Shown here: positions 4,590-18,864 of the stretch, piece by piece
Layout: every line of letters begins with the position of its first letter
Position numbering within the stretch: position 1 is the first letter of the stretch
IMG/VR virus record: IMGVR_UViG_3300031772_002647
Location: 1-35,653 of that record
Reading direction: 5' to 3' (one strand)
DNA from: a virus
DNA length: 35,653 nucleotides
Translations under genes and position numbers: made by a program
Notes under the pieces: model-generated
Told to the model about the DNA's origin: nothing
What the model saw: the letters and a program-made list of their open reading frames with translations, nothing else
The model's database searches: none

Positions 4590-6436
4590 ACATAATTATT
4601 CCAATCGGAGGAAAAGGTGAACGGTTTAAGAATGAAGGTTACACAACGCCAAAAGTTTTGATACCGGTATTAGGTCAAGAAATAATTTTTTGGGTTCTGG
4701 ATAGACTGTGCATTGATGTAGAAAATACCATAACAATAATTTACAATAATGAACTTGAAAATTGTGGATTAGAGAGTAGAATTAGAAATCGTTACAATAA
4801 ATATAATTTTAACTTCATTAAAATGCCCCATCAATCCAATGGGCCAATAGAAACCATACTATACGGATTGAACAGACTAACCGAAGATCAGTTAGATGAG
4901 ACTCTTTTGATTCACGATGGAGATTCGTTTGTCAAAACTTCAATTTTAGACAAAGTTAAACCGGGAGAACATAAAATATTCTATACCATAAATGATAACC
5001 CCAAACCTTTATTTTCCTATATAACGTTAAATGATGACAAAGTAACAAAGATAAGAGAGAAAGAAAAAATATCAGATAATGCTAATATTGGATGTTATCA
5101 GTTTTCCAGTGGAAGATTTTTCAAAGATTGGGCGACAGAAATATCTCCTGCTGGATACATATCCGAAGTTTATAGAATAATGTTAATGGGGAAAGAAGTT
5201 GTATTGTCAGAAAAAATAGAGCCAGATGATTTCGTATGTCTGGGAACACCTGCGCAAATAATACAATTTTCTTCTAAAACAAAACAACTACCAAAAAGAT
5301 TCTGTTTTGATTTGGATAATACGTTGGTTTCATACCCAGTTGATTCAGGCGACTACTCCACCGTCACACCAATTGAAAAAAACATAAAGTTTTTAAAATC
5401 GTTACATCAATCCGGACATTATATCATAATATATACCGCCAGAAGAATGAAAACACATGGATCTAATGTATCAAAAGTTATTCAAGATATTGGTAAAATA
5501 ACTCTGGATACATTGGAAAAATTTGAAATTCCGTATGATGAGATATGTTTCGGAAAACCATATGCGGATTTTTACATTGATGACTTAGCGGTTAACATTC
5601 ATGAGGACGTTGAGAAACAAACAGGATTTTACATAAACTCTGTAGAACCTAGACACTTCAATAGAGTGGAGTTTACTGATAAAACAGTAATTAAACGATC
5701 CGATAAAGATTTATCTGGAGAAATTAATTTCTATAAACAGTGTCCCAATGAGTTAAAAAAATATTTTCCAACTCTCATAAGATCTACGGAAACTGAGTTA
5801 GAAACCGAAAAAATAGAAGGGAATTTGGTATCAAAAATGTATTGTAACTCATCGTTGCACGAGTGTCACATAGATACATTATTTAATGTGTTGAATGCCA
5901 TCCAATCGTGTAAATTTTTTGATATGGTTGACATTTATGAAAATTATTCTAACAAGTTGGTATCTAGATATAATACCTATGACTATTCCAGATTTGTCAA
6001 TTCCAAAAAAACATTTGATAAAATAAACGAAAAACTAATAGAATATCAGTTGAGGAAATTGGGATGGATGTCTGTTATTCACGGAGATTTTGTTTTTTCA
6101 AATATATTTATAAACCCTAAAGATGAGGTGAAGTTGATAGATATGAGAGGAAAATTGGGAGACAAACTAACAATCTGCGGAGACATAAACTATGATTACG
6201 CAAAATTTTACCAATCTCTCATAGGATATGATTTCATTCTTAACGACAGATATCCTCCAATGATGTATTCCAAAAAATGTATAGATTATTTTGAATCTAA
6301 GTATAAAAAATTATACGGAGAAGAACAGCTTGAATATCTTAAATATATAACCGCTAGTTTATTATTTACCCTAATCCCCCTTCACAATAACAACAAATGT
6401 CAGTCATATTATAATTTGATAGAATATCTGATATAG
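4586..6436 (+). CDS. three-domain fusion: sugar nucleotidyltransferase, HAD phosphatase-like and kinase-like (APH/choline kinase fold)
   Basis: Three enzyme domains in one 616-residue chain. Domain 1 (about 1-225) is an NTP transferase with GGKGERF (8-14), TTPK (20-23) and an HDGDSF metal site near residue 110; it should couple a sugar phosphate or alcohol phosphate to a nucleotide. Domain 2 (about 238-350) is the HAD-like capsular biosynthesis module, with FDLDNT (241-246), an IIYTARR segment and a downstream FGKPYADFYIDD. Domain 3 (about 370-616) resembles aminoglycoside/choline kinases: HGD (499-501) followed by an Asn, and LIDMRG (517-522) in place of the usual Asp metal motif. ATGA overlap joins it to the preceding gene. 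Together they suggest making, phosphorylating and activating an unusual sugar or substituent. Substrates are unknown. Confidence 0.8.
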   Translation: MNIIIPIGGKGERFKNEGYTTPKVLIPVLGQEIIFWVLDRLCIDVENTITIIYNNELENCGLESRIRNRYNKYNFNFIKMPHQSNGPIETILYGLNRLTEDQLDETLLIHDGDSFVKTSILDKVKPGEHKIFYTINDNPKPLFSYITLNDDKVTKIREKEKISDNANIGCYQFSSGRFFKDWATEISPAGYISEVYRIMLMGKEVVLSEKIEPDDFVCLGTPAQIIQFSSKTKQLPKRFCFDLDNTLVSYPVDSGDYSTVTPIEKNIKFLKSLHQSGHYIIIYTARRMKTHGSNVSKVIQDIGKITLDTLEKFEIPYDEICFGKPYADFYIDDLAVNIHEDVEKQTGFYINSVEPRHFNRVEFTDKTVIKRSDKDLSGEINFYKQCPNELKKYFPTLIRSTETELETEKIEGNLVSKMYCNSSLHECHIDTLFNVLNAIQSCKFFDMVDIYENYSNKLVSRYNTYDYSRFVNSKKTFDKINEKLIEYQLRKLGWMSVIHGDFVFSNIFINPKDEVKLIDMRGKLGDKLTICGDINYDYAKFYQSLIGYDFILNDRYPPMMYSKKCIDYFESKYKKLYGEEQLEYLKYITASLLFTLIPLHNNNKCQSYYNLIEYLI

Positions 6437-6474
6437 TTTGACTTTATTATTCTCTGTGATAGTGTATCTTACAT

Positions 6475-7554
6475 ATGAGTTTCGAAATATTAAAATTTGA
6501 AGTTCCCGGAGGAAGTGCTGGAACTTCCCGAGAATTTTGCACTAGATTGAAAGACGCATATATAGAACCTATCTCCGCAACTGTAAACAACAAAATTCAG
6601 AGTAATTATGTAAATGTCTGGCATGATAACATGAAAGTCGTCGCTGGAATAGACAAACAACTTCAGATTCAAGGTTCTCCGGGAACGATCTACGACCCCA
6701 AAAGTTTAAACGATAGTGTTGTTTATGATGAATATGTAGATGATTCTATTTGTTTTATCCACGACGAAGCTGGTATAAATTACCAACATTTCTTTTTTTG
6801 TTTTTTTGGAAGATTCTATTATTTTGACGAACTTAGAAAAACACAAAAAATAAAACTTGGAATATTGGAAGATTTCTATACCGATGTGGGGAACAGCACT
6901 TTCATTAAAGAGTGGATTAATCTATGTTATGGGAAAGATGTAGAAATAGTGGTTCTCAAAAAAAATATAAGATACAAAATTAGAGATTTGATTCTTCCAA
7001 ACGCATTTTATTGTTTTCCACAACCATCTGGTTATAGACATATCGTGGATATGATAAGGAAAGTGGTAGATAAGGTTGATCCATTTCCAGGAGAGTTAAA
7101 AAAAGGAGTTTATATATCAAGACAAGATACAATAAAAAGAGGTTGGTATCATGGCCGGGAAATGAAAAACGAATTGGAACTGATAGAGTTAATTAAAACT
7201 GAATTGGGGTTTGATATAATAGAGTTGATGGATTATAACATGGGGGACAAAATTAGAATATTCAAATCATATAAAAACATAATACAACAACACAGTGCAT
7301 CTACTACTAATATTTTATTCTCAAACCCAAAGACCTATCATTTTTTGATAGAAAACCCTCAACAAAACTGGTGGTTGACACCAAAATGTGAAGAGTGGTC
7401 TACGATGACAAACTCTAGATTGATCAAAATTTCTGGTCAAGGAGAACTTCTAGAATCAGAAATGGACCCGAACAGTTTAGATCGTAATAACATTCCGTGG
7501 AGATTAAATAATGTGGAATCTATAGTCGATTCCATAAAACAATATATAGGATAA
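6475..7554 (+). CDS. GT61 (DUF563)-like glycosyltransferase
   Basis: The C-terminal half carries the DUF563/GT61 pattern: YISRQD (about residues 207-212), then R-x-x-x-NELEL, a GFDIIEL strand, a helix with MGDKIRIFKSYKNIIQQHSAS, and TNILFSNP. In canonical members the last block reads G-x-HGA-x-x-tN-x-F. Here the HGA is replaced by QHSAS, a conservative variant. The N-terminal half has HDEAGINYQHFFF, matching the usual N-x-x-H-x-x-x-[DE]/F region before the catalytic domain. The length, 359 residues, is typical. It starts after a 38-base gap, one of the few in this operon, and ends one base before the 3-dehydrase gene. Family members make O-linked or capsular glycans; the sugar is unknown. Confidence 0.78.
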   Translation: MSFEILKFEVPGGSAGTSREFCTRLKDAYIEPISATVNNKIQSNYVNVWHDNMKVVAGIDKQLQIQGSPGTIYDPKSLNDSVVYDEYVDDSICFIHDEAGINYQHFFFCFFGRFYYFDELRKTQKIKLGILEDFYTDVGNSTFIKEWINLCYGKDVEIVVLKKNIRYKIRDLILPNAFYCFPQPSGYRHIVDMIRKVVDKVDPFPGELKKGVYISRQDTIKRGWYHGREMKNELELIELIKTELGFDIIELMDYNMGDKIRIFKSYKNIIQQHSASTTNILFSNPKTYHFLIENPQQNWWLTPKCEEWSTMTNSRLIKISGQGELLESEMDPNSLDRNNIPWRLNNVESIVDSIKQYIG

Positions 7555-7555
7555 C

Positions 7556-8866
7556 ATGCAAGAGATACTAAAACTAGTAAAAGAATTTATAGACAAAAAG
7601 ACCGCTGACAAAACTTGGTCACCCGGAAAAGATTGGGTTCAATATTCAGGCCCAGTTTTTTCCAGCGATGAATACGTCTCAGCCATCAGTTCTTTGTTAG
7701 AGGGTTGGTTGGTATTGGGGAAAGATGCCATTAGTTTTGAAAATGAGTTTCCTAAACAGTTTAATAAAAAGTATGGGATATTGACTAACAGTGGAAGTAG
7801 TTCAAATTTATTAATGTTATCTGCGTTAACTTCTAAAAGACTTTACAATTTAAAGAGAGGAACTCGGGTTATAACCCCAATAGCAGGCTTCCCGACTACA
7901 TTGAATCCTATATTTCAACTGGGATTCGAGCCCGTATTCGTGGATATAGACATTGATACACTTAACCTAAATTTGGATCAAGTAGAACAAGCGGTTAAAC
8001 TAGGAGCCAAAATTATAACATTTGCCCATGTGTTGGGAAATCCACCTAATATGGATAGGTTGATGGATATAATAAATACCCACAAATTGATTTTTTTAGA
8101 AGATTGTTGTGATGCGTTAGGGTCTACTTATAAAGGAAATCCACTAGGAAGTTTTGGAGAAATGGCCAGCTGTAGTTTTTATCCGGCCCACCACATAACT
8201 ATGGGAGAAGGAGGTTTCGTAGCATGTAACACTCAGTTACAAGAAGTAGTAACCAGAAGTTTTAGAGAATGGGGACGAGGGTGTTATTGTGTTGGAAAAA
8301 AAGCTAATTTGTTAAAAAATGGATCGTGTGGAAAAAGATTCTCAAATTGGCTCCCAGAACTTCCAGATGAAATATTTGATCACAAGTATGTATATGACGA
8401 AGTTGGTTACAACTTAAAGCCAATCGAGTTACAAGCATCAATCGGACTGGCTCAGATGAAAAAGTTGCCAGAAATTCATAGTAAAAGAAAATCTAACCAT
8501 TCTAGATTATTCAATATTTTTAAAAAATATGAGGAGTTTTTTGTATTACCTAAGGCTACAGAGGGGTCTGATCCGAGTTGGTTCGCTTTTGCGTTGACAA
8601 TCAAAGATGGTTCTCCGTTTAAAAGAAAAGATATCGTTGACCATTTTGAGAGTAACAAAATACAAACTCGCCCATATTTTGCCGGAAACATTATGTTACA
8701 GCCAGCATATGATGGATTGATGGATAAACGGGATGTGGTATCAAAGTTCCCAAACGCTAGAAAAGTTACAACTGACACATTTTTCTTAGGAACTAGTCCC
8801 GTGATAACCGAAGAACAGTTAAACTATATAGAAACTGTAACTAATAAATTTTTTACAACAAAATGA
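7556..8866 (+). CDS. rfbH: RfbH/DdhC-type NDP-4-keto-6-deoxyhexose 3-dehydrase (PMP and [2Fe-2S] dependent)
   Basis: Belongs to the DegT/DnrJ/EryC1 aminotransferase fold but to the 3-dehydrase (E1) branch. In normal aminotransferases the PLP-binding Lys lies in an SFxPxK motif; here it is SFYPAHH with His at 212, the diagnostic replacement that stops Schiff-base formation and allows C3 deoxygenation. The iron-sulphur cysteines follow the E1 spacing: C185, 57 residues, C243, one residue, C245. The fourth, C258 before GKRF, is 12 residues on instead of the usual 7, so there is a five-residue insertion. At 436 residues it matches E1 (437). The gene lies just upstream of the 4,6-dehydratase and ThDP enzyme. 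It should give an NDP-3,6-dideoxy-4-ketohexose. The partner reductase (DdhD/RfbI) is not in the window. Confidence 0.92.
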   Translation: MQEILKLVKEFIDKKTADKTWSPGKDWVQYSGPVFSSDEYVSAISSLLEGWLVLGKDAISFENEFPKQFNKKYGILTNSGSSSNLLMLSALTSKRLYNLKRGTRVITPIAGFPTTLNPIFQLGFEPVFVDIDIDTLNLNLDQVEQAVKLGAKIITFAHVLGNPPNMDRLMDIINTHKLIFLEDCCDALGSTYKGNPLGSFGEMASCSFYPAHHITMGEGGFVACNTQLQEVVTRSFREWGRGCYCVGKKANLLKNGSCGKRFSNWLPELPDEIFDHKYVYDEVGYNLKPIELQASIGLAQMKKLPEIHSKRKSNHSRLFNIFKKYEEFFVLPKATEGSDPSWFAFALTIKDGSPFKRKDIVDHFESNKIQTRPYFAGNIMLQPAYDGLMDKRDVVSKFPNARKVTTDTFFLGTSPVITEEQLNYIETVTNKFFTTK

Positions 8867-9786
8867 AATCCGATAAAATAGCCTGCTTATTTTTTAACAT
8901 ATCGCTCGGAGTTAATAGGTATGAATCTGATAACTTCTTCGAACCAAACGCGGTGAAAAGCTTCAAACGTTGGAATCCTGACGTAGAAGTTCATGTAATA
9001 AATAATTCAAACTTTCACGAATATATGAAAGATTTGGAAATAGAAGAATATTACGAAGATATTGGGTTAATAATGTTGATGGTTATAAAACGGATGTTTG
9101 AAAAGTATAATTACAAAAAAATATTTCAACTCGGTATCGATACGATAACATGTTCTAGACTTGACGAGTTTATAGATAACTGCGTCGATGACATAATATG
9201 CACAACCGGAACATTTCATTCTGTGGTAAATGAACATTATATTACTCCAATTTTGGAGTTTATCGAAGGAGATATGTTGTATAGAGATGTCGCGTCTATT
9301 AATGGAGACGTGGTTTGTATAAACAATAAAAGAGCAGCATCGGTGCTGTTAGATACCACATTAAAAATATACACGTCTCAGACATCTCAAGGTGGATTGA
9401 ATTATTGTTATATAAATCAGAAAGAATTGAAGTTATCTGTATCGATAGTAGATTTCCCATATTTTAAAACTAAGGTGGTATACAATATAAGATCTAAAGG
9501 TGTTGTTGGTGGATATTGTTTAGTTAGAGGAAATGTATTGGATGGCCGCCGGGGTAGAGTTATTTCGAATACATATCCATCTACATTATTTGTAGTTAAA
9601 GACGATAAACTTTTTACTCACGATGATAAACAGATAAAGGTGTTCCATTTTTGTGAAGGGTTAGGTTATAAAACGGACGATGTAGATGAACTAACATATG
9701 ACGAACAGATAAATGAGATGAAGACCATGTGGTTTAACGAACGTACTTTGGAATTTTTTAAAAATAAATGTGAGTGTATTTTTTAG
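8863..9786 (+). CDS. probable GT-A glycosyltransferase, 307 aa
   Basis: Not clearly assigned to a family. The N-terminal 130 residues look like a GT-A nucleotide-sugar domain: an opening ACLFFNIS strand, a YKKIFQLGIDTITCSRLDE segment at about 86-104 (a hydrophobic strand followed by Asp-Thr and then a Leu-Asp helix, as in GT8-like and capsule transferases), and later GDVVCINNKRA (about 148-158), which in GT8 enzymes is the strand reporting an acceptor-side residue. The C-terminal third is Val/Tyr-rich and ends with a Lys/Cys-rich helix. ATGA overlap with the 3-dehydrase gene implies coupled expression. It is a plausible transferase for the sugar made by its neighbours, but that is inference from position. 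Confidence 0.6.
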   Translation: MKSDKIACLFFNISLGVNRYESDNFFEPNAVKSFKRWNPDVEVHVINNSNFHEYMKDLEIEEYYEDIGLIMLMVIKRMFEKYNYKKIFQLGIDTITCSRLDEFIDNCVDDIICTTGTFHSVVNEHYITPILEFIEGDMLYRDVASINGDVVCINNKRAASVLLDTTLKIYTSQTSQGGLNYCYINQKELKLSVSIVDFPYFKTKVVYNIRSKGVVGGYCLVRGNVLDGRRGRVISNTYPSTLFVVKDDKLFTHDDKQIKVFHFCEGLGYKTDDVDELTYDEQINEMKTMWFNERTLEFFKNKCECIF

Positions 9787-9828
9787 AATATAAAAAATTC
9801 CACAATTTCATTGTAGATATGTATTTGT

Positions 9829-10782
9829 ATGATTAAAATTGTCTACATCACGGGTTGTCTTGGTTTCATAGGTTCATATGTAACCAGAGAATGTTTAAGG
9901 AAAGGTTGGTATGTTAAAGGGATCGACAAAATGACATACGCTGCTCGCCCGGAACTACTCGACGAGTTTTCAAAAAATCCAAAATTTCATTTTGAAAAAA
10001 TGGATATATGTGACATAGATAGATTGGTAGATTGCGATTATTTTATTAACCTTGCTGCCGAAAGTCACGTAGACAATTCCATCAGAAAAAGCGAAGAATT
10101 TCTACATTCAAATGTAGATGGAGTTTATAACATATTAGAATTGTTAAGAATTTATCAAAGATCTTCTGATTCATCTCCCACTTTTATTCATTTTTCAACT
10201 GACGAGGTATATGGAGATATTGAAGTAGGAAGTCATACGGAATCAGATCCACTAAAACCAAGTAATCCATATTCAGCTACTAAAGCAGCTGCCGATCAGT
10301 TAATCCTCGCCTGGTCGCGGACATATAACCTTCCATATGTCATTCTGCGACCCACAAACAATTATGGAATTGGACAATATGTTGAAAAGTTAATACCAAA
10401 AACTAGTAAGTTTATTAAACTAAATCGTAGAGTTCCACTTCATAACAACGGAACCCCTCGTAGAACTTGGCTTCATGCACATGACACGGCTACATCTGTT
10501 ATAAAAGTCATAGAATCGGGAATTAGAAATGAGATATATAACGTGTCCGGAAACTATGAAGATTCAAACATAAACATAATAAGAAAAATATTGACAGTTA
10601 AGTATGGAGTAGGGTATGATATCAATAAATACGTAGATTTCTCATATACTAGGGCAGGTCAAGATGTGAGGTATAGTTTGGACGATTCTAAATTAAGGTC
10701 GCTGGGTTGGTCAAATCAAATGAGTTTTGACTCGGAACTTCCTCAAATTATAGATTTTTACGATAACAATTTTATTTGGTAA
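9829..10782 (+). CDS. rfbB: RfbB-like NDP-glucose 4,6-dehydratase (extended SDR)
   Basis: Catalyses NAD-dependent conversion of an NDP-hexose to the 4-keto-6-deoxy sugar, the entry step to most 6-deoxyhexoses. The motifs are clear: a Gly-rich NAD loop GCLGFIGS near residue 8, DKMTYAA (close to the DKLTYAG of RfbB), NLAAESHVD, the catalytic FSTDEVYGD with Thr-Asp-Glu, and the SDR YSATK pair. NNYGIGQYVEKLIP and RRTWLHAHD are also typical. At 317 residues it is slightly shorter than the bacterial enzyme (about 340-360). The sequence resembles the dTDP-glucose enzyme more than the CDP-glucose enzyme, although the RfbH-type neighbour classically uses CDP sugars, so the nucleotide is uncertain. A 42-base gap with a small inverted repeat precedes it. 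Confidence 0.9.
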   Translation: MIKIVYITGCLGFIGSYVTRECLRKGWYVKGIDKMTYAARPELLDEFSKNPKFHFEKMDICDIDRLVDCDYFINLAAESHVDNSIRKSEEFLHSNVDGVYNILELLRIYQRSSDSSPTFIHFSTDEVYGDIEVGSHTESDPLKPSNPYSATKAAADQLILAWSRTYNLPYVILRPTNNYGIGQYVEKLIPKTSKFIKLNRRVPLHNNGTPRRTWLHAHDTATSVIKVIESGIRNEIYNVSGNYEDSNINIIRKILTVKYGVGYDINKYVDFSYTRAGQDVRYSLDDSKLRSLGWSNQMSFDSELPQIIDFYDNNFIW

Positions 10783-10792
10783 CATACCGTAT

Positions 10793-12610
10793 ATGAAAAT
10801 TAAAGTAAGCGATCTTATAGCTGAATTTTTAGAAAAAGCAGGAATAGATACAATATTTGGAATAATAGGATCAGCGAACTCCCACATATTCAACTCCATA
10901 GATAAACGAGGTTACACAAAAATTATATGTGTTCATCATGAACAGGCAGCTGTTATGGCTATGGGTGCATACTTTCGATCTTCTGGAAGAATAGCTGCTT
11001 CATTGGTGACCGCTGGTGCGGGTTCATCAAACGCTATCACCGGAGTCGTCAGTAATTGGGCAGACTCAATTCCTGGAATAATACTCTCCGGACAAGAACA
11101 AGCTAAGTTTTTGGAACAATATGAGGGTATGAGAATGTATGGGATTCAGGGGTTTGATTCTCCAAAGATGGTTAAGGATACAACTAAACGCTCAATCACA
11201 GTTAAAGATGAGACATCTGTTCAACATAACTTGGAAGCAGCTCACTTCATAACTCGAACCGGAAGACCGGGCCCAGTGTGGATCGACTTCCCAATGGATG
11301 TTCAATCAAAAATGGTGGAACCTAGAGAATGGAATTTTATATCTCCGTTTGTGGAAGAGGAATTAACTGATTCCGAGAATTTTATATTGGAACAAGTATT
11401 AGAACAAATGTCTCAAGCAAAAAGGCCAATTATTTGGGCTGGCCACGGGATCCGTCTAGCCGGGATGAAGAATGAGTTTAGACAGTTAGTATCAAAACTC
11501 AAAATTCCTGTAATATTGTCTTGGAGTGGTATAGATTTGTTACACAATGACGACCCATATTATTTTGGAAGAGCTGGAGTTACCGCGATACGATATTCCA
11601 ACTTCATAGTTCAGAATTGTGATTTTTTATTGGCTATCGGAACCAGACTCTCTTTATTACAAGCAGGATACGATGCATCTCAATTTGCTAGATCCGCTAA
11701 AATTGTTGTGGTAGACGTTGATAAAACTGAATTAGATAGGTTTGGAAAATTGAAGAATAATATTGTTCTGCCCCACGATTGTAGAACGGTGATGAAGAAG
11801 TTATCTTCGTCTGAAAAATCTTATTTTAAACCTGAGTGGGTAGATTATTGTAACAAGATGAAATCAAAATATCCTCTACTTGAACCATATCATGTGGATA
11901 ATGGATATGCAAATTCATATAAGTTTTTGGATTTTTTAAGCGACAAGCTAAAAGGTAACGAGGTTATCGTAACTGATATGGGCACTGGGTTGTTGAGTGG
12001 ACACTATTCAATTAAGTTGAAGCCAGATAATATGATGTTTACTTCCTTGGGCTTAGGAGAAATGGGTTATGGATTGCCTGGAGCTATAGGAGCAGCTTTT
12101 GCAAATCCGGATAGAGATATCATATGTCTGAACTGTGACGGTGGAATGATGATGAACCTACAAGAACTCCAAACAATAATACATCACAAACTTAGAATTA
12201 AAATTGTAGTGTTCAACAATGATGGATATTTGATGATTAAACATACTCAAAATTTATTATTCAAAGGAGAGAGAACAGCGGTTAGTAAAAATACCGGAGT
12301 AAGTTGTCCAGATTATAGTAAGTTAGGAGAATCTCTTGGATTTCATATAACTAAGCCAGTTAGGTTATGTGATGATACGCTGAGTTCAAAGATTGATGAT
12401 TTTCTATCTGACAACGGCCCAACTATAATGGAAGTGTTCATGGATCCTGAACAGGATTTTTTACCAAAAGTAAAGGGAGTAGTAAACGAAGATGGATCTA
12501 TAACTCCCGCAAGTCTTGAAGAAATGTCGCCGCTGTTGTCATATGAGGATATAGAAGAGGCTATGATTTCCGGAGTTGATCCGAAATCGAAAGTCATAAA
12601 AAGACCATGA
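10793..12610 (+). CDS. ThDP-dependent enzyme, acetolactate synthase/YerE-like, in a sugar pathway
   Basis: Full three-domain ThDP enzyme of the acetohydroxyacid synthase type (605 residues). The N-terminal Pyr domain has VHHEQAA with the catalytic Glu at 50, the central domain has AGHGIRLAG, and the C-terminal PP domain has GEMGYGLPGAIGAAF followed by CDGGMMMNLQELQTI and NND, which is the ThDP/Mg motif (canonical GDG is CDG here). A short tail (VNEDGSITPASLEEMSP) is like that of the ThDP proteins found in O-antigen clusters rather than of biosynthetic IlvB. The best functional precedent is YerE, which adds a two-carbon unit from pyruvate to C4 of a CDP-3,6-dideoxy-4-ketohexose in yersiniose synthesis. 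Its stop overlaps the acetaldehyde dehydrogenase start. Whether it binds FAD cannot be judged here. Confidence 0.88.
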   Translation: MKIKVSDLIAEFLEKAGIDTIFGIIGSANSHIFNSIDKRGYTKIICVHHEQAAVMAMGAYFRSSGRIAASLVTAGAGSSNAITGVVSNWADSIPGIILSGQEQAKFLEQYEGMRMYGIQGFDSPKMVKDTTKRSITVKDETSVQHNLEAAHFITRTGRPGPVWIDFPMDVQSKMVEPREWNFISPFVEEELTDSENFILEQVLEQMSQAKRPIIWAGHGIRLAGMKNEFRQLVSKLKIPVILSWSGIDLLHNDDPYYFGRAGVTAIRYSNFIVQNCDFLLAIGTRLSLLQAGYDASQFARSAKIVVVDVDKTELDRFGKLKNNIVLPHDCRTVMKKLSSSEKSYFKPEWVDYCNKMKSKYPLLEPYHVDNGYANSYKFLDFLSDKLKGNEVIVTDMGTGLLSGHYSIKLKPDNMMFTSLGLGEMGYGLPGAIGAAFANPDRDIICLNCDGGMMMNLQELQTIIHHKLRIKIVVFNNDGYLMIKHTQNLLFKGERTAVSKNTGVSCPDYSKLGESLGFHITKPVRLCDDTLSSKIDDFLSDNGPTIMEVFMDPEQDFLPKVKGVVNEDGSITPASLEEMSPLLSYEDIEEAMISGVDPKSKVIKRP

Positions 12611-13458
12611 AAATTAAAGTTGGAATTATAGGAAGTGGCAATATAGGGACAGATCTTCTAATGAAGACTCTGAAATCCGATATAATTGAAACCACGGCTT
12701 TTGTGGGAAGACGTGAATCCTCAGATGGAATTAAAAAGGCTATTGACAGAGGGATAGTCACATCCACCGATGGGATAGATTTTTTTAGAAAAAATCCAAA
12801 CATATGCGACGTTGTGTTTGATTGCACCAATGCTTTTTCTGCTATTGAGAATAACGAAGTTTTTTCTTATCAGGGGATAAAAATTGTAGATTTAACTCCA
12901 TCCAAGATCGGAGATATGTGCGTTCCTATCATAAATGGAGATATAATCAAAACCAAATCAAATGTGAATATGATAACTTGTGGAGGACAAGCATCTATCC
13001 CAATATTAAACTTGTTATCTACGTTAATACCTAATCAAATTGATTATATAGAAATAGTTTCTCAAGTAGCATCATTGAGCGCAGGTATAGCTACTAGGGT
13101 GAATATAGACAAATATATTCATACGACAGAATCAGCAATTTCACTGTTTACGAACTGTAAAAGTTGTAAAGTTATATTAAATATAAACCCAGCAGAACCG
13201 TGTGTGGATATGCAGACTACCATGTTTATAAAATCTAAGGGTCTAGATTTAAAATCCATATTGTCAGGAATAAAAGAAAGAATTGAGTTGGTAAGGAAAT
13301 ACGTTCCATATTATGATATGGTTATGGATCCAGTTATAAACGATGATGTATTAATTTTAAGCATCAGAGTCAGAGGCGCCGGAGATTATCTACCAAGGTA
13401 TTCTGGAAATTTAGATATAATAAACTGTGCAGCAATAAACGTGGTGGAAAGATTATGA
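12607..13458 (+). CDS. acylating acetaldehyde dehydrogenase (DmpF/MhpF family)
   Basis: Interconverts acetaldehyde plus CoA and acetyl-CoA with NAD. It is recognisable end to end: NAD loop GIIGSGNIGTD (7-17), catalytic Cys at 125 in NMITCGGQASIP (family: NM-[IV]-TCGGQA), SAGIATRVNID (family SAGPGTRANID), KYVPYY, and GAGDYLPRYSGNLDI near the C-terminus. The length, 283 residues, is a little under the usual 300-315. In known systems this enzyme forms a complex with the aldolase encoded next to it and acetaldehyde is channelled between them. The flanking ATGA overlaps on both sides with the ThDP and aldolase genes indicate coupled synthesis of all three. In this context it may act in reverse, making acetaldehyde from acetyl-CoA; direction is inference. 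Confidence 0.92.
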   Translation: MKIKVGIIGSGNIGTDLLMKTLKSDIIETTAFVGRRESSDGIKKAIDRGIVTSTDGIDFFRKNPNICDVVFDCTNAFSAIENNEVFSYQGIKIVDLTPSKIGDMCVPIINGDIIKTKSNVNMITCGGQASIPILNLLSTLIPNQIDYIEIVSQVASLSAGIATRVNIDKYIHTTESAISLFTNCKSCKVILNINPAEPCVDMQTTMFIKSKGLDLKSILSGIKERIELVRKYVPYYDMVMDPVINDDVLILSIRVRGAGDYLPRYSGNLDIINCAAINVVERL

Positions 13459-14462
13459 GCTTTATAACTATTAGTGATCCAACGTTGAGAGATGGAAACC
13501 ATAGCGTTAATCATCAAATTAGCCTTAAAATGGTCGCTGAGTATTGTAGGTTCGCAGAATCTGCTAAAATACGAATCGTGGAAGTCGGTCATGGAAACGG
13601 ACTTGGGGCATCGTCGTTATTAATTGGACAAATGCCTCATACAGACCGCCAACTTCTTTATACCGCACGAGAAAACTTAATTGATTCACAATTGGGAGTA
13701 CATGTTATTCCTGGAATCGCTACCATAGATAGGGATATCTCACCCGCAATTGATATAGGTGTGGATGTGTTTCGAGTAGGATGTCACGTAACAGAGGCTA
13801 ATATCACACAGCCACATATAGAATTTATAAGAAACTCCGGTAAAACGGCAGTTGGCGTATTAATGATGACTGCTCTGGGGGATACAAAAACTTTGGTGAG
13901 CGAGGCTCAGAAGATGGAAAAGTATGGGGTGTCAGATATTATCATAATGGATTCCACAGGAACATACTTACCATCTGACGTATCGGAAAGAATAAAGGCT
14001 CTGAGGAATGGGTTAGTAGTTGGGGTTGGGTTTCATGCTCATAACAATTTAGGTATGGCGGTTGCTAACTCCCTCGCAGCAGCAGAGTCGGGTGCAACTA
14101 TAATAGATGCTACTATGAGAGGGTTTGGAGCCGGAGCTGGGAACACCCAACTTGAGGTTTTAATCCCGGTTCTTGAAAAAAGTGGGTTTTTAACTTACGT
14201 TGATTTTAAAAGAGTCATAAAAGAAGCCAATACCGTAATGGAATATATGATTGTAAAACCACCCACAGTTTCTCCAATTAATATTTTAACTGGACTAAAT
14301 AAACTGTTTTCGGGTTTCGAAAAACCCATTATGAAGGCAGCCTCTCTCTATAAAGTCGAATATTCCGAATTGGTACGTTTATTGGGGGAAAGAAAACTGG
14401 TTGCGGGTCAGGAAGACCTTATCATGGAAGTAGCACAGAACTTATCCCTTCGGAATAAATAA
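13455..14462 (+). CDS. 4-hydroxy-2-oxovalerate aldolase (DmpG/MhpE/BphI family)
   Basis: Class II pyruvate aldolase of the DRE-TIM/HMGL-like superfamily. It shows DPTLRDGNH at residues 8-16 (R12, D13 and H16 correspond to the catalytic Arg, Asp and His of BphI), VEVGHGNGLGASS (42-54), IMDSTGTY (near 164-171), GFHAHNN with the metal ligands H194 and H196, and GFGAGAGNTQLEVL. The C-terminal region after about 265 is the communication domain that docks to the dehydrogenase. The length, 335 residues, is normal. The bacterial homologues split 4-hydroxy-2-oxovalerate to pyruvate and acetaldehyde in meta-cleavage catabolism, but no aromatic-pathway gene is present here. The pair lies in a sugar cluster, so it may run in the synthetic direction or accept another aldehyde. 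Confidence 0.92.
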   Translation: MSFITISDPTLRDGNHSVNHQISLKMVAEYCRFAESAKIRIVEVGHGNGLGASSLLIGQMPHTDRQLLYTARENLIDSQLGVHVIPGIATIDRDISPAIDIGVDVFRVGCHVTEANITQPHIEFIRNSGKTAVGVLMMTALGDTKTLVSEAQKMEKYGVSDIIIMDSTGTYLPSDVSERIKALRNGLVVGVGFHAHNNLGMAVANSLAAAESGATIIDATMRGFGAGAGNTQLEVLIPVLEKSGFLTYVDFKRVIKEANTVMEYMIVKPPTVSPINILTGLNKLFSGFEKPIMKAASLYKVEYSELVRLLGERKLVAGQEDLIMEVAQNLSLRNK

Positions 14463-15328
14463 TGAAAATTTTGATGACAGGAAGAAACGGATTCATAGGT
14501 TCTAATTTAGCACTCACATTAGAATCTCATGGGCACGTCGTCTACTCACTTTCCTATCGAGATTCTTTTCCCGATGTAAGAGATGAAATACTAACTTTTA
14601 ATCCTCAAGTTACAATTCACTGTGGTTGGTTTGGCGGAAACAATTACTCCCAGTCTAATGATATAGATCAATTTCATAAAAATATACCAAATGGAATAAA
14701 ATTGATAGAAATATTAAAAGATATAAAAAATGACCATACGTTTATAGGTTTTGGAACCACCTTTGAATATGGTTTAAAGAATCATGTTGTTGATGAAGAA
14801 GAGGTGGAGACTCCGGTGGATCTATATGGAATGTCAAAGTTAGTTTTTAAGAACTATTCTAGGTTGTTATGCGAAAAATATAATGTAAATTGGACGTGGA
14901 TTAGACCCTGTTACACTTATGGTCCGGGAGATGTCAAAACCAGACTAATTCCGAAAGTTATAAATAACATCCTATCCTCTCAACCATTAATGTTTGATGA
15001 GTGCAAATCCATTATAGATTATCTTTATATTGATGACTTTTCCAACGCTATTTTGAAATTAATAGACAACAAATCAATCGGGGTGTATAATGTCTGTTCA
15101 GGTCAGCAATATAAAATAAAAGATGTAATACTCAAGATATCAGAATTAATGAATTACGATTATAGAAAAATTATATTTGATCCGGAGTTGTATTCCAAAA
15201 CATCCAAACCTCAGTTTATCTGTGCTGACAACTCTAAACTTAGATATACTATAGATTGGGAACCTACAACTAAAATTGAAGTGGGATTATCTAAAACTAT
15301 AGAGAACATTAAAAAGAACCGATTATGA
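14462..15328 (+). CDS. extended SDR, candidate NDP-sugar reductase or epimerase (possible YerF-like step)
   Basis: NAD(P)-dependent sugar enzyme: MTGRNGFIGSN near residue 5 is the Gly-rich cofactor loop, GTTFEYG holds the catalytic Thr/Ser position and LYGMSK the Tyr-Lys pair; WIRPCYTYGPGD and IDYLYIDD are typical of NDP-sugar epimerase/reductases. There are 288 residues. It begins on the last base of the aldolase stop (TAATG), making it the fourth gene of a tightly coupled block with the ThDP enzyme, the dehydrogenase and the aldolase. In yersiniose synthesis YerE is followed by an SDR reductase (YerF) that reduces the keto group of the newly added branch, so the same role is an attractive inference here. 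An alternative is CDP-abequose/paratose synthase-type reduction at C4. Confidence 0.82.
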   Translation: MKILMTGRNGFIGSNLALTLESHGHVVYSLSYRDSFPDVRDEILTFNPQVTIHCGWFGGNNYSQSNDIDQFHKNIPNGIKLIEILKDIKNDHTFIGFGTTFEYGLKNHVVDEEEVETPVDLYGMSKLVFKNYSRLLCEKYNVNWTWIRPCYTYGPGDVKTRLIPKVINNILSSQPLMFDECKSIIDYLYIDDFSNAILKLIDNKSIGVYNVCSGQQYKIKDVILKISELMNYDYRKIIFDPELYSKTSKPQFICADNSKLRYTIDWEPTTKIEVGLSKTIENIKKNRL

Positions 15329-15954
15329 AAGATTTAGTAAAATTAAATGAAGATAATTGGCACTGGCCTATCAGAGATGTAACCAGTTGGGAGGGACAGA
15401 AGAAACAATCTGAGATATTCGAGAATATAAAACCATATGTCAAAAACCGACGAGTGATGATACAAGCCGGTGGAAATTGTGGATTTATATTAAGCAAATT
15501 TGTCGATAAATTTGAACACATTTATACATTCGAGCCAGACCCGGTGAATTTTTATTGTTTAAATTTAAACGTGACTTCAAAAAATGTCACAAAATTCCAA
15601 TCCTGTTTGGGATCAGATAACAAACTAGTAGGAATAGAAGACCATCCCACAGATATAGGGGGTGTACATGTAAAAGGAGAGGGATTCACCCCATGTATAC
15701 AAATAGATAGTCTCAAGTTAAACGGGTGCGATTTGATTCAGTTGGATGTCGAAGGTTATGAATATGATGCTTTATTGGGAGCCACCGACACAATTCAACG
15801 GTTCAAACCAACTTTGTGTTTGGAATGGTGTGAAAAATGGGCTAATAGATACAATGTTCAATATTCTCATCTAGAAAGTTTATTGGAATCCCTAAATTAT
15901 AAACACGTTTCAAATTCGGGAGTGGATAAAATTTATACATATAAATCACAATGA
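15325..15954 (+). CDS. FkbM-family SAM-dependent methyltransferase
   Basis: Class I methyltransferase domain of the FkbM type, normally O-methylating a sugar hydroxyl. Motif I is degenerate but visible (IQAGGNCGFI, about residues 46-55), followed by YTFEPDPVNF, where the acidic residue binds the ribose of SAM. The family signature IQLDVEGYEYDALLGA (about 139-154) is clear, and PTLCLEW follows. The length, 209 residues, is normal. ATGA overlaps link it to the SDR genes on both sides. The methylated sugar is unknown; it may be the sugar made by the upstream pathway. Motif I lacks one of the usual glycines but otherwise I see no reason to doubt activity. Confidence 0.85.
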   Translation: MKDLVKLNEDNWHWPIRDVTSWEGQKKQSEIFENIKPYVKNRRVMIQAGGNCGFILSKFVDKFEHIYTFEPDPVNFYCLNLNVTSKNVTKFQSCLGSDNKLVGIEDHPTDIGGVHVKGEGFTPCIQIDSLKLNGCDLIQLDVEGYEYDALLGATDTIQRFKPTLCLEWCEKWANRYNVQYSHLESLLESLNYKHVSNSGVDKIYTYKSQ

Positions 15955-16790
15955 ATATTTTAGTTACAGGAAGCGACGGGTTTATTGGATCAAACGTAAT
16001 TCGGTTATTATCATCGGATTCAAACCTAAAATTATTTCCCGGAAACAGAAAGTCGGTTAATCTATACTCACAAAAATCTGTAGAAAGTTTTATTGATAAA
16101 AACGAAATAACTGATATCGTACATTGTGCTATAGAAGGGGGTCATAAAAACGACAAAGTTGAAATGTTTTATAACAATTTGTTGATGTTTGAAAATTTGA
16201 AAAGACAATCTCATAAAATAAGAACGTTTATAAATATTGCAAGCGGCGCTGAGTATGATAGGAGACATTCCCTCTATGATGTTTCGACTTATGATTTAGG
16301 AAACTCCATACCCGAAGATTATTATGGATTATCCAAATATTTAATTTCGATGCGGGTAAGAGAAATGATAGGAGGAGTAAATCTTAGAGTGTTCGGGTGC
16401 TTTGGAAGAGGAGAACGCCCAGATAGAATGATCAGTTCGAGTTTAAAAAACTACATAAATGGAAAACCAATAGTAATACACCAAGATAGGTTTATGGATT
16501 TTTTTTACATAGATGATCTGGTATATGTGATTAATAAATTTTTATATAGAGATGATTCTGAATATTCATATTCGGAGAAAGATTTAAACATGTCATACGA
16601 TATAAAGTTTAAATTGTCTGAGGTGGCTAGAATAATAAACAATTTGGATGATAAAAAAGTTCCAATTGTAATACAAGATGCCACTGCTGGAAACGATTAT
16701 TGTGGAATGCCTCCGAGGTGGCCTTTCCAACACCATTTCATAGGATGGGGAAGAGGAATAACAGAATATTACAAGTCGATGAAAGTATGA
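15951..16790 (+). CDS. extended SDR, NAD-dependent sugar epimerase/dehydratase family
   Basis: Contains the cofactor loop VTGSDGFIGSN (residues 5-15), IVHCAIEGG where other members have HLAA, NIASGAEYDR (catalytic Ser), and YYGLSKY (Tyr/Lys pair), then LRVFGCFGRGERPDR and DFFYIDD. The arrangement is closest to GDP-fucose synthase-like and related NDP-hexose epimerases/reductases. There are 279 residues, slightly short. Both ends overlap neighbours by four bases. It is a second sugar-modifying SDR beside the one at 14462, so the cluster could make more than one unusual sugar or finish a sugar in two steps. Specificity cannot be read. Confidence 0.8.
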   Translation: MNILVTGSDGFIGSNVIRLLSSDSNLKLFPGNRKSVNLYSQKSVESFIDKNEITDIVHCAIEGGHKNDKVEMFYNNLLMFENLKRQSHKIRTFINIASGAEYDRRHSLYDVSTYDLGNSIPEDYYGLSKYLISMRVREMIGGVNLRVFGCFGRGERPDRMISSSLKNYINGKPIVIHQDRFMDFFYIDDLVYVINKFLYRDDSEYSYSEKDLNMSYDIKFKLSEVARIINNLDDKKVPIVIQDATAGNDYCGMPPRWPFQHHFIGWGRGITEYYKSMKV

Positions 16791-17728
16791 ACATAAAAGT
16801 ATCAATGCATCTAATGCCGTGGGAAATGGATCATGCTCTGTTGATAGCAGATAGACTTAGACAGAGTAGTTATAACATAGATCCATCTGACACGGTATAT
16901 GTAGATACAGCATTGAATTTATCATCACTGTTAATAGATTGGGAGAAATCAAAATTGCCCAAAGAATTTTTCATAGAAAAGTATAACACATTTTCAAAAA
17001 TTGTGGAAGGACGTATTATCCATAGACCATTTGTTTATGCTGGTGGCGGATTATATGGACACCTAGACCTACAGAAATCAGTAATTCAAGATAACATAGA
17101 TTATTACCTTACAATATGTCCAGACATAGATTTTTCTACTTCTCTGTTATATTATATGATAGAAACTGCGAAAAGGGTAAAAAACAAATATTTCATAGTA
17201 ACTCCCCAGATATTTCGATGTTGGGATAGTAGTTGGGATATGTTGGTGAATGAAAGATTTTTAAAATATGACTATAAAGATTGTATAGATGTAGATATAT
17301 ACGATATTAGAAATCAGATGAATGAGACACAATCTGAAGTGTCTTCGTTTCAAATACAAGATTTCAAATTCGCTGGTTGGTTTGATTTGTACAACAAAGA
17401 TTTTTATGAAAAAATGGTGCCCGCTCGTCCGGAGTGGTCTGGATATGGCCCCTGGGATTTTTATGCGATTAACGTATCATCTTTCGCTAAATCTAGAGGC
17501 GTTGATGTAGTTCAACATGTAGTTAAGGATGAAATTGTATGGTTTTATGATGTTGGGAAACTAAAAAACACGGAAGAATATGGAGCCGATGGTTTGTTGA
17601 AAACAACTTATACCAAATTTTTAACTCGGAAAATTGATAAAGTTTCTCAAGCGGTTGACATCCGAAGTAAACTAAATCTTTACATCAACGAGTGGATAAA
17701 GTATGCTACGGATTCTAAAATAATATGA
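16787..17728 (+). CDS. probable GT-A glycosyltransferase, 313 aa
   Basis: Unassigned. I see a GT-A-like plan: an opening strand [11 protein letters not shown], a middle [12 protein letters not shown] segment (about 102-113) with Asp-x-Asp, then a helix and strand ([18 protein letters not shown]), and a later [15 protein letters not shown] region of the type seen where GT2 enzymes bind acceptor. The start is set at 16787 because it forms ATGA with the preceding stop; an in-frame ATG at 16700 would add 29 residues lying wholly inside the previous gene. It sits between an SDR and an acyltransferase fusion, all with four-base overlaps. The function is inferred from fold-like features and context. 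Confidence 0.58.
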
Positions 17729-18864
17729 ATCAAAATTCTAATAGAATAAGAAGTGTGGGGAAACAGACATATGGGCATGATAATATAGACATATATTATT
17801 GGGGAGAAAATACTTGGTTGGATATAGGAGATTACTGTTCCATATCAGGACATATATTAGTCTATCTAGGAGGAAACCATCGGATAGATTGGGCCACAAC
17901 ATATCCGTTTGGACACGTAAATAAGAATACGTTTAATATGTTTGATGGAAAAGGTCACCCAGGAACCAAGGGAGATGTAAAAATTGGAAATGATGTTTGG
18001 ATAGGAACATATGTTACCATTATGAGCGGAGTAACTATAGGAGATGGAGCATGTATAGCTTGCAATTCGGTAGTGACAAAAGATGTGCCTCCATATGGCA
18101 TCGCCGGTGGCAACCCTGCCAAGTTAATAAAAAACAGGTTTTCAGATGATATCATCAAAAAGTTTCTTTATCATAAGTGGTGGGAATTAGACGTTTCAAC
18201 AATAAATAAAATTTCTCCCTTGTTATGTTCCGATAAATTTGATATATTATTTGAGACTTTGGAAAAACTTAAAAAACCTATGATAGACTTGGAAAACAAG
18301 ATTAATGATCTATATCGAACTCCGTCTGATATAAATGAACATATACCTACCCTTATAAAATTCGCTTCGGAGTGCGAACATATCACCGAAATGGGAGTAA
18401 GAGGAATTTTTACAACTTGGGTATTTTTAGGAGCCAGCCCCAAAAAATTGGTAAGTTATGATTTATACAATCCCTCACATTATGGATCAAACATACAAGA
18501 CGTTTATGATGTAGCTGAATCATATGGAATAGATTTTAAATTCGTGGAATCAGATGTGTTAAAGGTTACAATAGATCAGACCGACCTTTTATTTTTAGAC
18601 ACATGGCACTCATATGATCAATTAAAAGGAGAACTAGCTCTACATTCTTCAAAAGTAAACAAATATATTGTAATGCATGATACCACCACTTATGCTCATA
18701 AAAATGAAGCATTGACATCCGAACATTCTGAAATCGTGGAGGTGGAAACCGGAAAAGGAATTTGGCCAGCGGTGGAAGAATTTTTAGCCTCTACAACAGA
18801 ATGGGAACTTTTAGAGAGACACATAAATAACAATGGATTGACCGTTTTAAAAAGAATAAAATAA
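17725..18864 (+). CDS. fusion: hexapeptide-repeat acyltransferase plus methyltransferase-like domain
   Basis: The N-terminal part (about 1-180) is a left-handed beta-helix acyltransferase of the CatB/WbbJ-xenobiotic type: [19 protein letters not shown] followed by [33 protein letters not shown] is the classical ending. The C-terminal part (about 205-379) looks like a class I SAM methyltransferase: [14 protein letters not shown] as a weak motif [28 protein letters not shown], and IVMHDT, as in Methyltransf_24/CmcI-like domains. At 379 residues it is about the sum of both. The two halves are separated by a short Lys/Asp-rich helix. I infer acetylation and methylation of a sugar by one protein. 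The first half is secure, the second less so. Confidence 0.8.

Follow-up and report, generated by a model that had tools for sequence, protein, structure and literature searches.

The window, i.e., the whole stretch of 35,653 nucleotides of viral DNA analysed here, carries a gene cassette whose product is probably a nucleotide-linked, erwiniose-like branched sugar, as judged from the enzyme families that it encodes. The original prediction had described a virus-borne pathway to a 3-deoxy, 4-C-branched sugar that follows the logic of yersiniose synthesis. The observation was confirmed, since the genes are present and all cassette open reading frames were recovered at the coordinates given, and the enzyme families supported a pathway of this kind. 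The interpretation was partly supported: the predicted product would not be yersiniose but a 3,6-dideoxy sugar whose C4 carries a four-carbon branch.

Gene content of the cassette

The six cassette frames are all open, and the genes lie on the plus strand. Downstream of the core enzymes described below, the expected SDR at 14462..15328 matched PF01370 and has the YxxxK and GxxGxxG motifs, making it a candidate branch-ketone reductase. A second SDR (15951..16790, +; PF01370) is a rival candidate for the same role, and a relative of it was found in 46/62 viral loci, compared with 22/62 for the first SDR. Between them, 15325..15954 (+) encodes an FkbM-family methyltransferase (TIGR01444, 46.8 bits, above cut-off), which might O-methylate the sugar and has relatives in 19 of the 62 viral loci. 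Among the pathway genes, 8863..9786 (+) may encode a GT-A-type glycosyltransferase; Pfam and PHROG searches gave no match for its product, and its model (pLDDT 71.5) had GlyE as best Foldseek match, a weak one (E 3.6e-6, TM about 0.4).

The 3-dehydrase, the 4,6-dehydratase and the nucleotide

The product of 7556..8866 (+) proved to be the RfbH/E1-type 3-dehydrase (PMP, [2Fe-2S]) that had been proposed from His212. It scored 476.8 bits against NF011936 (cut-off 423), and alignment to 3bcx/3bb8 placed His212 (in SFYPAHH) in the catalytic position, His standing for Lys. The four Fe-S ligands required of RfbH/DdhC E1 enzymes are also present (C185-X57-C243-X1-C245-X12-C258); relative to the E1 ligand motif, which we take to be C-X57-C-X1-C-X7-C, the last spacing is X12 instead of X7, giving a longer Fe-S loop, a trait in which the viral cassettes differ from the bacterial ones.

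The gene at 9829..10782 (+) encodes the anticipated NDP-glucose 4,6-dehydratase, which adjoins the ThDP gene in 49/62 viral loci. Its product matched TIGR01181 at 301.9 bits, under that model's own dTDP equivalog cut-off of 365.1, and the CDP type TIGR02622 at 61.6 bits (cut-off 278.45), suggesting a dTDP-like enzyme on the RmlB side, with the nucleotide assigned at family level, and making the formerly assumed CDP route doubtful. A CDP-type dehydratase above cut-off was found in 1/50 viral records versus 47/50 bacterial genomes (counted in 50 of the 80 bacterial loci). The 50-record viral set comprised the 62 viral loci minus the near-copies L009, L017, L020, L022, L045, L051, L052, L054, L060 and L064, the truncated L056 and the distant L066. 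A dTDP route would need a change of E1 specificity, because in the characterised pathway the E1 substrate is a CDP sugar. One viral contig of 192 kb (L005) has RfbF-, RfbG- and RfbH-like genes in one row with the ThDP, ALDH and HOA genes.

The absence of RfbF-like and E3 genes from the window, already pointed out in the original prediction, extended to a near-identical 41 kb sister contig, which covers the cassette and reaches 11 kb further upstream: neither an RfbF-size nucleotidyltransferase nor a Fer2-type (E3-like) reductase was found in it. The sole nucleotidyltransferase-like domain seen is in a fusion protein (4586-6436). Flippase PF01943, priming transferase PF02397 and Fer2 reductase PF00111 were each found in 0/50 viral records.

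The ThDP enzyme

The enzyme encoded at 10793..12610 (+) belongs to the YerE-like ThDP carboligases (JanthE/ErwE group) by sequence, fold and catalytic residues. As predicted, it is YerE-like, its nearest solved structure being 8rph (JanthE), which scored 592 bits versus 232 bits for acetohydroxyacid synthase; TM was 0.91 at 45% identity with JanthE, and about 0.8 at 25% with acetohydroxyacid synthase. Grouping with acetolactate synthase, which would have spoken against the original prediction, was looked for and not found. The acetolactate synthase reading was ruled out, JanthE being closer in both sequence and fold, and the best NCBIfam equivalog (TIGR00118) scored 328.6 bits against a cut-off of 538.35. 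The catalytic Glu50 and a Cys448-Asp-Gly (CDG) motif are present, and the equivalents of JanthE Tyr297 and Lys567 (here Lys559) are retained. Residue comparison showed that JanthE Y268 and P293, reported as FAD-stabilising, are replaced by T264 and L289; this pair is a JanthE trait, not demonstrated as family-defining, and Tyr at the 268 position is kept in 22/51 viral HOA loci and 68/68 bacterial ones.

Donor supply by ALDH and HOA

The product of 12607..13458 (+) is an acylating acetaldehyde dehydrogenase (ALDH; TIGR03215, 313.6 bits, equivalog cut-off 282.25) and that of 13455..14462 (+) a 4-hydroxy-2-oxovalerate aldolase (HOA; TIGR03217, 306 bits, equivalog cut-off 286). The pair shares the defining features of DmpFG/BphIJ: the ALDH has its catalytic Cys125, and the HOA has the Arg-Asp-His and metal His pair (R12, D13, H16, H194 and H196) and the DmpG communication domain (PF07836). 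The ALDH would supply acetaldehyde to the aldolase. Enzymes of these two families make the C5 2-keto acid used by ErwE.

The 4S-control residues of BphI, Leu87 and Tyr290, are not retained in the window HOA, which has His83 and Phe285 at these positions. His at position 87 was found in 40/40 viral and 68/68 bacterial aldolases, and Phe at 290 in 39/40 viral (one gap) and 68/68 bacterial ones; a wider viral set of 75 rows was not uniform (87: His 73, Phe 2; 290: Phe 68, Met 4, Val 2, gap 1). In the available text of PMC3962088, comparable substitutions inverted BphI from 4S to 4R, the variants L87N/Y290F and L87W/Y290F cleaving the 4R but not the 4S form. The HOA product is therefore probably (4R)-4-hydroxy-2-oxovalerate, as far as these two positions predict it.

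Recurrence in viruses and bacteria

The ThDP, ALDH and HOA genes are contiguous on one strand in 51/62 viral loci (a set that includes some near-copies), which excludes a chance gene order. All three occur in 68 of the best 80 bacterial relatives, and in a viral scan that started from HOA, ThDP and ALDH genes were found in 64/65 loci having >3 kb before the HOA match; in the exception, L211, the contig ends inside its ThDP gene, and L225, L226 and L227 (aldolase match <100 bits or none) are omitted from the count. The original prediction had regarded the ALDH and aldolase as extra to the pathway. They are not, because their genes constantly accompany that of the ThDP enzyme and their families make the ErwE donor. 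The scans used exact peptide patterns, so the counts describe close relatives among the loci listed (80 at most), and many contigs appear in both viral scans. Dozens of sequences from uncultivated phages carry the cassette, and in trees the all-viral clades holding the sister contig comprise 39 ThDP, 36 HOA and 36 ALDH rows.

Three bacterial CDG loci (L094, L126 and L128; >4.5 kb on both sides) are without ALDH or HOA. A second viral variant combines an HpaI-type aldolase with a GDG instead of a CDG ThDP motif, and 9/10 GDG loci carry another aldolase in the same place, implying that the donor differs in some relatives. The ThDP tree (123/146 ThDP rows, near-copies and short rows omitted) has only two independent pairs for the correlation of motif and aldolase, too few for a test.

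The original prediction had also held such a set to be unfamiliar from phages. This stood in so far as the best matches among 50,697 INPHARED records, among the matches listed, are at most 35.3% identical, which set aside a relative in a cultured phage; the ThDP protein, however, does match phrog_11199 (unknown function, 316 bits), so a related protein is already in the PHROG phage collection. Identity to the ThDP protein reaches 30.3% at most in the best 20 of 50 INPHARED matches, of which the annotated ones are acetolactate synthases. No full-length aldolase match exceeded 35.3%, and the best comes from a draft contig of Salmonella that is listed as a phage. Plasmid origin was rejected, with no ThDP match at 1e-90 among 72,556 plasmid records.

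Alternative explanations

A yersiniose-type pathway, in which the unit added by the ThDP enzyme has two carbons and comes from pyruvate and the ALDH and HOA have another role such as acetaldehyde recycling, would have the identical order of steps, and the ThDP family includes the pyruvate-preferring YerE as well as JanthE, which accepts pyruvate too. The two-carbon addition originally proposed nevertheless seems unlikely to us, as ALDH and HOA genes accompany the ThDP gene in viral and bacterial loci alike, and relatives without them mostly carry another aldolase in their place. The gene context thus points to a donor other than the pyruvate of the yersiniose pathway. That donor could itself differ if the HOA accepted an aldehyde such as propanal or glycolaldehyde, and the hydroxylated branch would then be a different one: ErwE also uses 4-hydroxy-2-oxobutanoate and -hexanoate, aldolases of the BphI family take longer aldehydes after changes near 87 and 89 (available text of PMC3962088), and position 87 differs in the window HOA. 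We give this little weight, since an ALDH above the acetaldehyde dehydrogenase equivalog cut-off and contiguous with HOA fits acetaldehyde.

It is very improbable that the ALDH and HOA form a catabolic auxiliary metabolic pair (meta-cleavage end) lying in a sugar island by chance. Aromatic catabolism is where their families are most familiar (mhpF-mhpE in E. coli, for instance), and the available part of one virome paper (PMC13303688) counts the aldolase among viral genes of amino-acid metabolism, but viral HOA is practically always accompanied by a ThDP gene, His and Phe at the stereo-control positions separate the viral and bacterial cassette aldolases from MhpE, and long branches separate them in trees. 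Decayed or non-functional cargo is an equally poor prospect: the changed FAD-contact residues of the ThDP enzyme and the lack of an E3 or RfbF gene (sister contig; Fer2 in 0/50 viral records) would suit it, yet the frames are open, the catalytic residues of the dehydrase, ThDP enzyme, ALDH and HOA are intact, and gene order is retained across distant viral relatives.

Proposed pathway and its implications

In the erwiniose-like route that we favour, the 4,6-dehydratase would convert an NDP-glucose, most likely host dTDP-glucose, to the 4-keto-6-deoxy sugar, and the RfbH/E1-type dehydrase would strip the C3 hydroxyl with electrons from a host reductase. The ALDH would turn acetyl-CoA into acetaldehyde and hand it to the HOA, which would join it with pyruvate to 4-hydroxy-2-oxovalerate; the families are established, the direction and the 4R stereochemistry presumed. 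The ThDP enzyme, established as to type, would decarboxylate this substrate and transfer what remains, an acyl unit of four carbons, to the keto group at C4. JanthE takes 4-hydroxy-2-oxovalerate as donor with benzaldehyde, and also pyruvate (PMC12188165), so a mixed donor is possible. One of the two SDRs would then reduce the branch ketone to a 3,6-dideoxy-4-C-(1,3-dihydroxybutyl)-hexose, possibly O-methylated. In the weakest step, cytoplasmic attachment by phage glycosyltransferases might follow, with a phage product a likelier recipient of the sugar than a polysaccharide destined for export.

We tentatively suggest, as a broader possibility, that large phages own a modular, virus-specific, dTDP-linked C4-branched deoxysugar chemistry, in which exchange of the aldolase sets the branch (4R-specific HOA with CDG ThDP; HpaI-type with GDG ThDP) and the sugars are placed on their own virion components in the cytoplasm. 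If the erwiniose-like route itself is right, phages would encode, with the carbon-donor supply included, a complete pathway to a sugar type that is among the rarest, and phage coding would go beyond sugar-modifying enzymes; no close cassette relative was seen among the matches listed from the 50,697 named phage records. Branch chemistry in phages and bacteria would become predictable by a genomic rule based on aldolase type and ThDP motif, a physiological donor would be suggested for JanthE, and the stereo-inversion made in BphI by design would be predicted to occur naturally. The phage set would also be an enzyme source for tertiary-alcohol synthesis.

Comparison with known systems

The cassette has two features in common with the erwiniose pathway, E1-type 3-deoxygenation and a YerE-like ThDP carboligase, for which 4-hydroxy-2-oxopentanoate would be the donor and a 4-keto-3,6-dideoxy sugar the acceptor. 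ErwE of Pectobacterium atrosepticum uses this C5 2-keto acid instead of pyruvate (PMC12247030), and the likeness is drawn from the published description of ErwE, not its sequence. No erwiniose gene cluster was found in a literature search, and Pectobacterium is absent among the best 80 bacterial loci. The stereochemical match of the product to erwiniose rests on the systematic name of erwiniose as we presume it to be. Enzymes for 4-hydroxy-2-oxopentanoate supply are encoded beside the ThDP gene, but the cassette is virus-encoded, its 4,6-dehydratase is dTDP-like, not CDP-type, and no RfbF/E3 gene was seen; we therefore file the cassette as a variant, not a member, of the erwiniose pathway, which has CDP-sugar intermediates.

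JanthE of Janthinobacterium sp. HH01 (8rph, 8rpi, 8rpj), whose physiological substrates were stated as not identified (PMC12188165), shares the uncommon CDG motif, whereas the window has Thr and Leu at its Y268 and P293 positions. Yersiniose A synthesis (YerE, DdhC; Yersinia pseudotuberculosis) has 4,6-dehydration, C3 deoxygenation, ThDP addition at C4 and keto reduction in common with the cassette, and differs in its pyruvate donor, two-carbon branch and CDP sugar made by the RfbF/RfbG route, of which neither enzyme was seen here. To our knowledge, it proceeds without dedicated donor-making enzymes. BphI-BphJ, DmpG-DmpF and MhpE-MhpF resemble the window pair in families, catalytic residues, communication domain and gene adjacency; the window pair differs in its biosynthetic setting and in the His/Phe at BphI Leu87/Tyr290, and is well separated in trees from the E. 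coli pair MhpE and MhpF. Caryophyllose (MMAR_2332, Mycobacterium marinum), with a six-carbon branch at C4, likewise has a hydroxylated 2-keto acid as the source of a longer branch, at a different locus, and the GDG/HpaI relatives perhaps make a product of the caryophyllose kind.

Pathway Genes in the Window

The window, a virus record of 35,653 bases, encodes proteins matching the T4-type DNA polymerase and clamp loader, dUTPase, exonuclease, helicase and endolysin families. The polymerase lies in two overlapping frames (24725-26470 and 26385-27371), and a near-identical sister contig (L230, 430-2175 and 2090-3076) carries frames of equal lengths and overlap. All the genes named in the original prediction were recovered, including a 3-dehydrase (7556-8866), a 4,6-dehydratase (9829-10782), a YerE-like ThDP enzyme (10793-12610), an acetaldehyde dehydrogenase (ALDH, 12607-13458), a 4-hydroxy-2-oxovalerate aldolase (HOA, 13455-14462) and an SDR (14462-15328). 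The 3-dehydrase contained the predicted His212 and passed the RfbH equivalog cut-off (476.8 bits against 423), and the CDP-sugar 3-dehydrase entries 3bcx and 3bb8 aligned with almost its full length. Its four cysteines follow the E1 pattern, with a final spacing of 12, not the 7 of the motif that we take as the E1 reference. Against a cut-off of 365.1, the 4,6-dehydratase scored 301.9 bits with the dTDP model; with the CDP model it scored 61.6 bits (cut-off 278.45). Both ALDH and HOA exceeded their equivalog cut-offs, and HOA contains the DmpG communication domain.

Glycosyltransferase, methyltransferase and acetyltransferase genes surround the cassette. A single protein at 4586-6436 combines nucleotidyltransferase-like and HAD phosphatase-like parts with a C-terminal part judged kinase-like by eye; five further cassette-bearing records have nucleotidyltransferase matches within frames 602-647 aa long. 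The protein at 17725-18864 begins with a hexapeptide acetyltransferase-like part, the only one detected by domain search, followed by a part that looks methyltransferase-like by eye.

ThDP Enzyme and Its Predicted Donor

The closest solved structure to the ThDP enzyme was 8rph (592 bits; runner-up, a Pseudomonas acetolactate synthase, 232 bits), which a passage of the JanthE paper identifies as JanthE (PMC12188165). The AlphaFold2 model (pLDDT 80.5) matched JanthE with a TM score of 0.91 and 45% identity, and acetohydroxyacid synthases ranked behind it at ~25% identity. The two enzymes share the uncommon CDG motif (Cys448 in the window); two residues tied by the JanthE authors to FAD stabilisation are changed in the window enzyme.

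The same paper describes 4-hydroxy-2-oxovalerate as a JanthE substrate, with benzaldehyde (PMC12188165). This acid is the aldol-direction product of the HOA family, with acetaldehyde coming from the dehydrogenase. Since the acid is both a product of the window aldolase's family and accepted by JanthE, the cassette is predicted to yield a four-carbon, erwiniose-like branch, unlike the two-carbon branch of yersiniose. The original prediction, a yersiniose-type two-carbon addition to which ALDH and aldolase were extra, is not supported on either point, as the families of these two enzymes yield a JanthE substrate and the predicted donor genes point to four carbons. Erwiniose is described as a ten-carbon sugar with a four-carbon branch (PMC8657720).

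Conservation in Viruses and Bacteria

The viral set comprised 62 loci, some of them near-copies: 61 from a viral-contig scan with the ThDP protein and L005 from a first aldolase scan. ALDH was present in 53 and HOA in 52 records, and ThDP, ALDH and HOA genes were contiguous on one strand in 51. A 4,6-dehydratase (>50% identity to that of the window) adjoined the ThDP gene in 49 of the 62 and lay elsewhere in 5 more; in 47 of the 52 HOA loci, an SDR lay no more than 600 bases after HOA. A separate viral scan with an aldolase alignment gave at least 80 loci, many on contigs of the ThDP scan; 77 of the 80 listed had an aldolase match >100 bits. Among the 65 with >3 kb ahead of that match, 64 contained both ThDP and ALDH genes, the sole exception being L211, whose contig ends within its ThDP gene.

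Of the best 80 bacterial ThDP relatives, 68 had ALDH and HOA inside the fetched flanks, several of them from Oxalobacteraceae such as Duganella and Massilia (ThDP relatives L090, L096, L108, L110, L113, L114, L116, L120 and L129). Janthinobacterium, the source of JanthE, belongs to this family, and these neighbourhoods point to 4-hydroxy-2-oxovalerate as the natural donor of JanthE. Against the co-occurrence of the three genes stand three bacterial CDG loci (L094, L126 and L128) that have neither ALDH nor HOA although >4.5 kb was available on each side.

Among 142 loci (62 viral and the 80 best bacterial), 51 viral and 67 bacterial ones combined the CDG motif with HOA, whereas 3 viral and 7 bacterial ones had GDG in its place and no HOA; GDG with HOA was found once, in L005. 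The remaining 13 had another or unreadable motif, or CDG without HOA, several on cut-off contigs. Of the 10 GDG loci without HOA, 9 have an HpaI-like aldolase (Pfam check at L043 and L142) directly 3′ of the ThDP gene, and the contig of the tenth (L138) stops 28 bases past that gene; none of 120 HOA loci has such an aldolase. Because the tree requires two motif changes, the pairing is suggestive, not significant; it suggests that the GDG/HpaI relatives use a different, perhaps longer, donor. In viral GDG/HpaI loci, a 4Fe-4S protein weakly similar to LdpA, possibly an electron donor, lies near the 3-dehydrase or ThDP gene (L043, 13212-14372; L038, 13226-14374; L055, 13106-14263; L225, 8239-9243). 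L225 represents yet another variant: one row (6161-15558) comprises nucleotidyltransferase-like, RfbH-like, distant HMGL-type aldolase (28% identity), HpaI-like and GDG ThDP genes, and gave no acetaldehyde dehydrogenase match.

All trees were quick ones, built without bootstrap and with long branches flagged. The ThDP tree gathered 39 viral rows into a single all-viral clade (SH-aLRT 100); four other viral rows (L029, L037, L039 and L040) nested in a proteobacterial clade. The HOA and ALDH trees each contained an all-viral clade of 36 rows including the sister contig (SH-aLRT 99 and 100). These topologies fit at least two acquisitions.

Sugar Nucleotide, Electron Supply and Acceptor

Of 50 viral records, one (L005) had a CDP-glucose 4,6-dehydratase above cut-off, compared with 47 of 50 bacterial genomes that carry this ThDP enzyme; among the control genomes it was 1 of 14. 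On the 192 kb contig L005, RfbF-, RfbG- and RfbH-like genes form a single row with those for the ThDP enzyme, ALDH and HOA; a nucleotidyltransferase domain occurred in 9 of the 50 viral records. We infer that most cassette phages begin from host dTDP-glucose; SpnQ of spinosyn synthesis is reportedly an E1 homologue working on a dTDP sugar.

RfbH exceeded its cut-off in 34 of the 50 viral records and matched more weakly in 12 further; all 14 controls gave below-cut-off matches only. At ten viral loci (L013, L014, L019, L025, L028, L032, L036, L048, L060 and L064), the best RfbH match was a His-type dehydrase (SFYASH/SFYSSH) lacking the CxC motif. These proteins may be ColD-like, and their occurrence suggests two interchangeable kinds of C3 deoxygenation. 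The Fe-S loop is 4-6 residues longer in viral E1 proteins (X11-X13 in 34, X7 in 2) than in bacterial ones (X7 in 53); the pattern did not fit 2 full-length viral proteins and 12 full-length bacterial ones. Since no Fer2-type reductase was detected in the 50 viral records (controls, 12 of 14), we infer that electrons for the 3-dehydrase come from the host.

Neither a Polysacc_synt flippase nor a Bac_transf priming transferase was detected in the 50 viral records (controls, 13 and 9 of 14). We favour an acceptor in the cytoplasm, for example a virion protein; alternatively, host machinery could export the glycan. Terminase-family matches occurred in 13 of the 50, seven strong ones on contigs of 131-327 kb, although this model also matches 11 of 14 cellular controls and alone is no proof of a virus.

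Comparison with Known Systems

A literature search with preprints and most subscription journals outside its scope listed no paper whose title or abstract opening describes a phage YerE/ErwE-type pathway. A groundwater virome paper names this aldolase as a viral auxiliary gene, in a passage giving no YerE/ErwE-type context (PMC13303688).

As described for BphI, the wild-type aldolase is strictly 4S, Y290F loses this control, and L87N/Y290F and L87W/Y290F cleave the 4R but not the 4S substrate (PMC3962088; PMC4012138). Residues were mapped via E. coli MhpE (L85, L87, Y288), assuming a constant offset of two to BphI. Position 87 is His in 40/40 viral and 68/68 bacterial cassette aldolases, and position 290 is Phe in 39/40 (one gap) and 68/68; a wider viral set of 75 rows had His (73) or Phe (2) at 87 and Phe (68), Met (4), Val (2) or a gap (1) at 290. 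Because His is not among the residues tried at position 87 of BphI, it is by analogy that the cassette aldolases are predicted to be 4R-specific. As 3,6,8-trideoxy-4-C-[(R)-1-hydroxyethyl]-D-gulo-octose, erwiniose would have the R configuration at C7, the one expected from a 4R acid.
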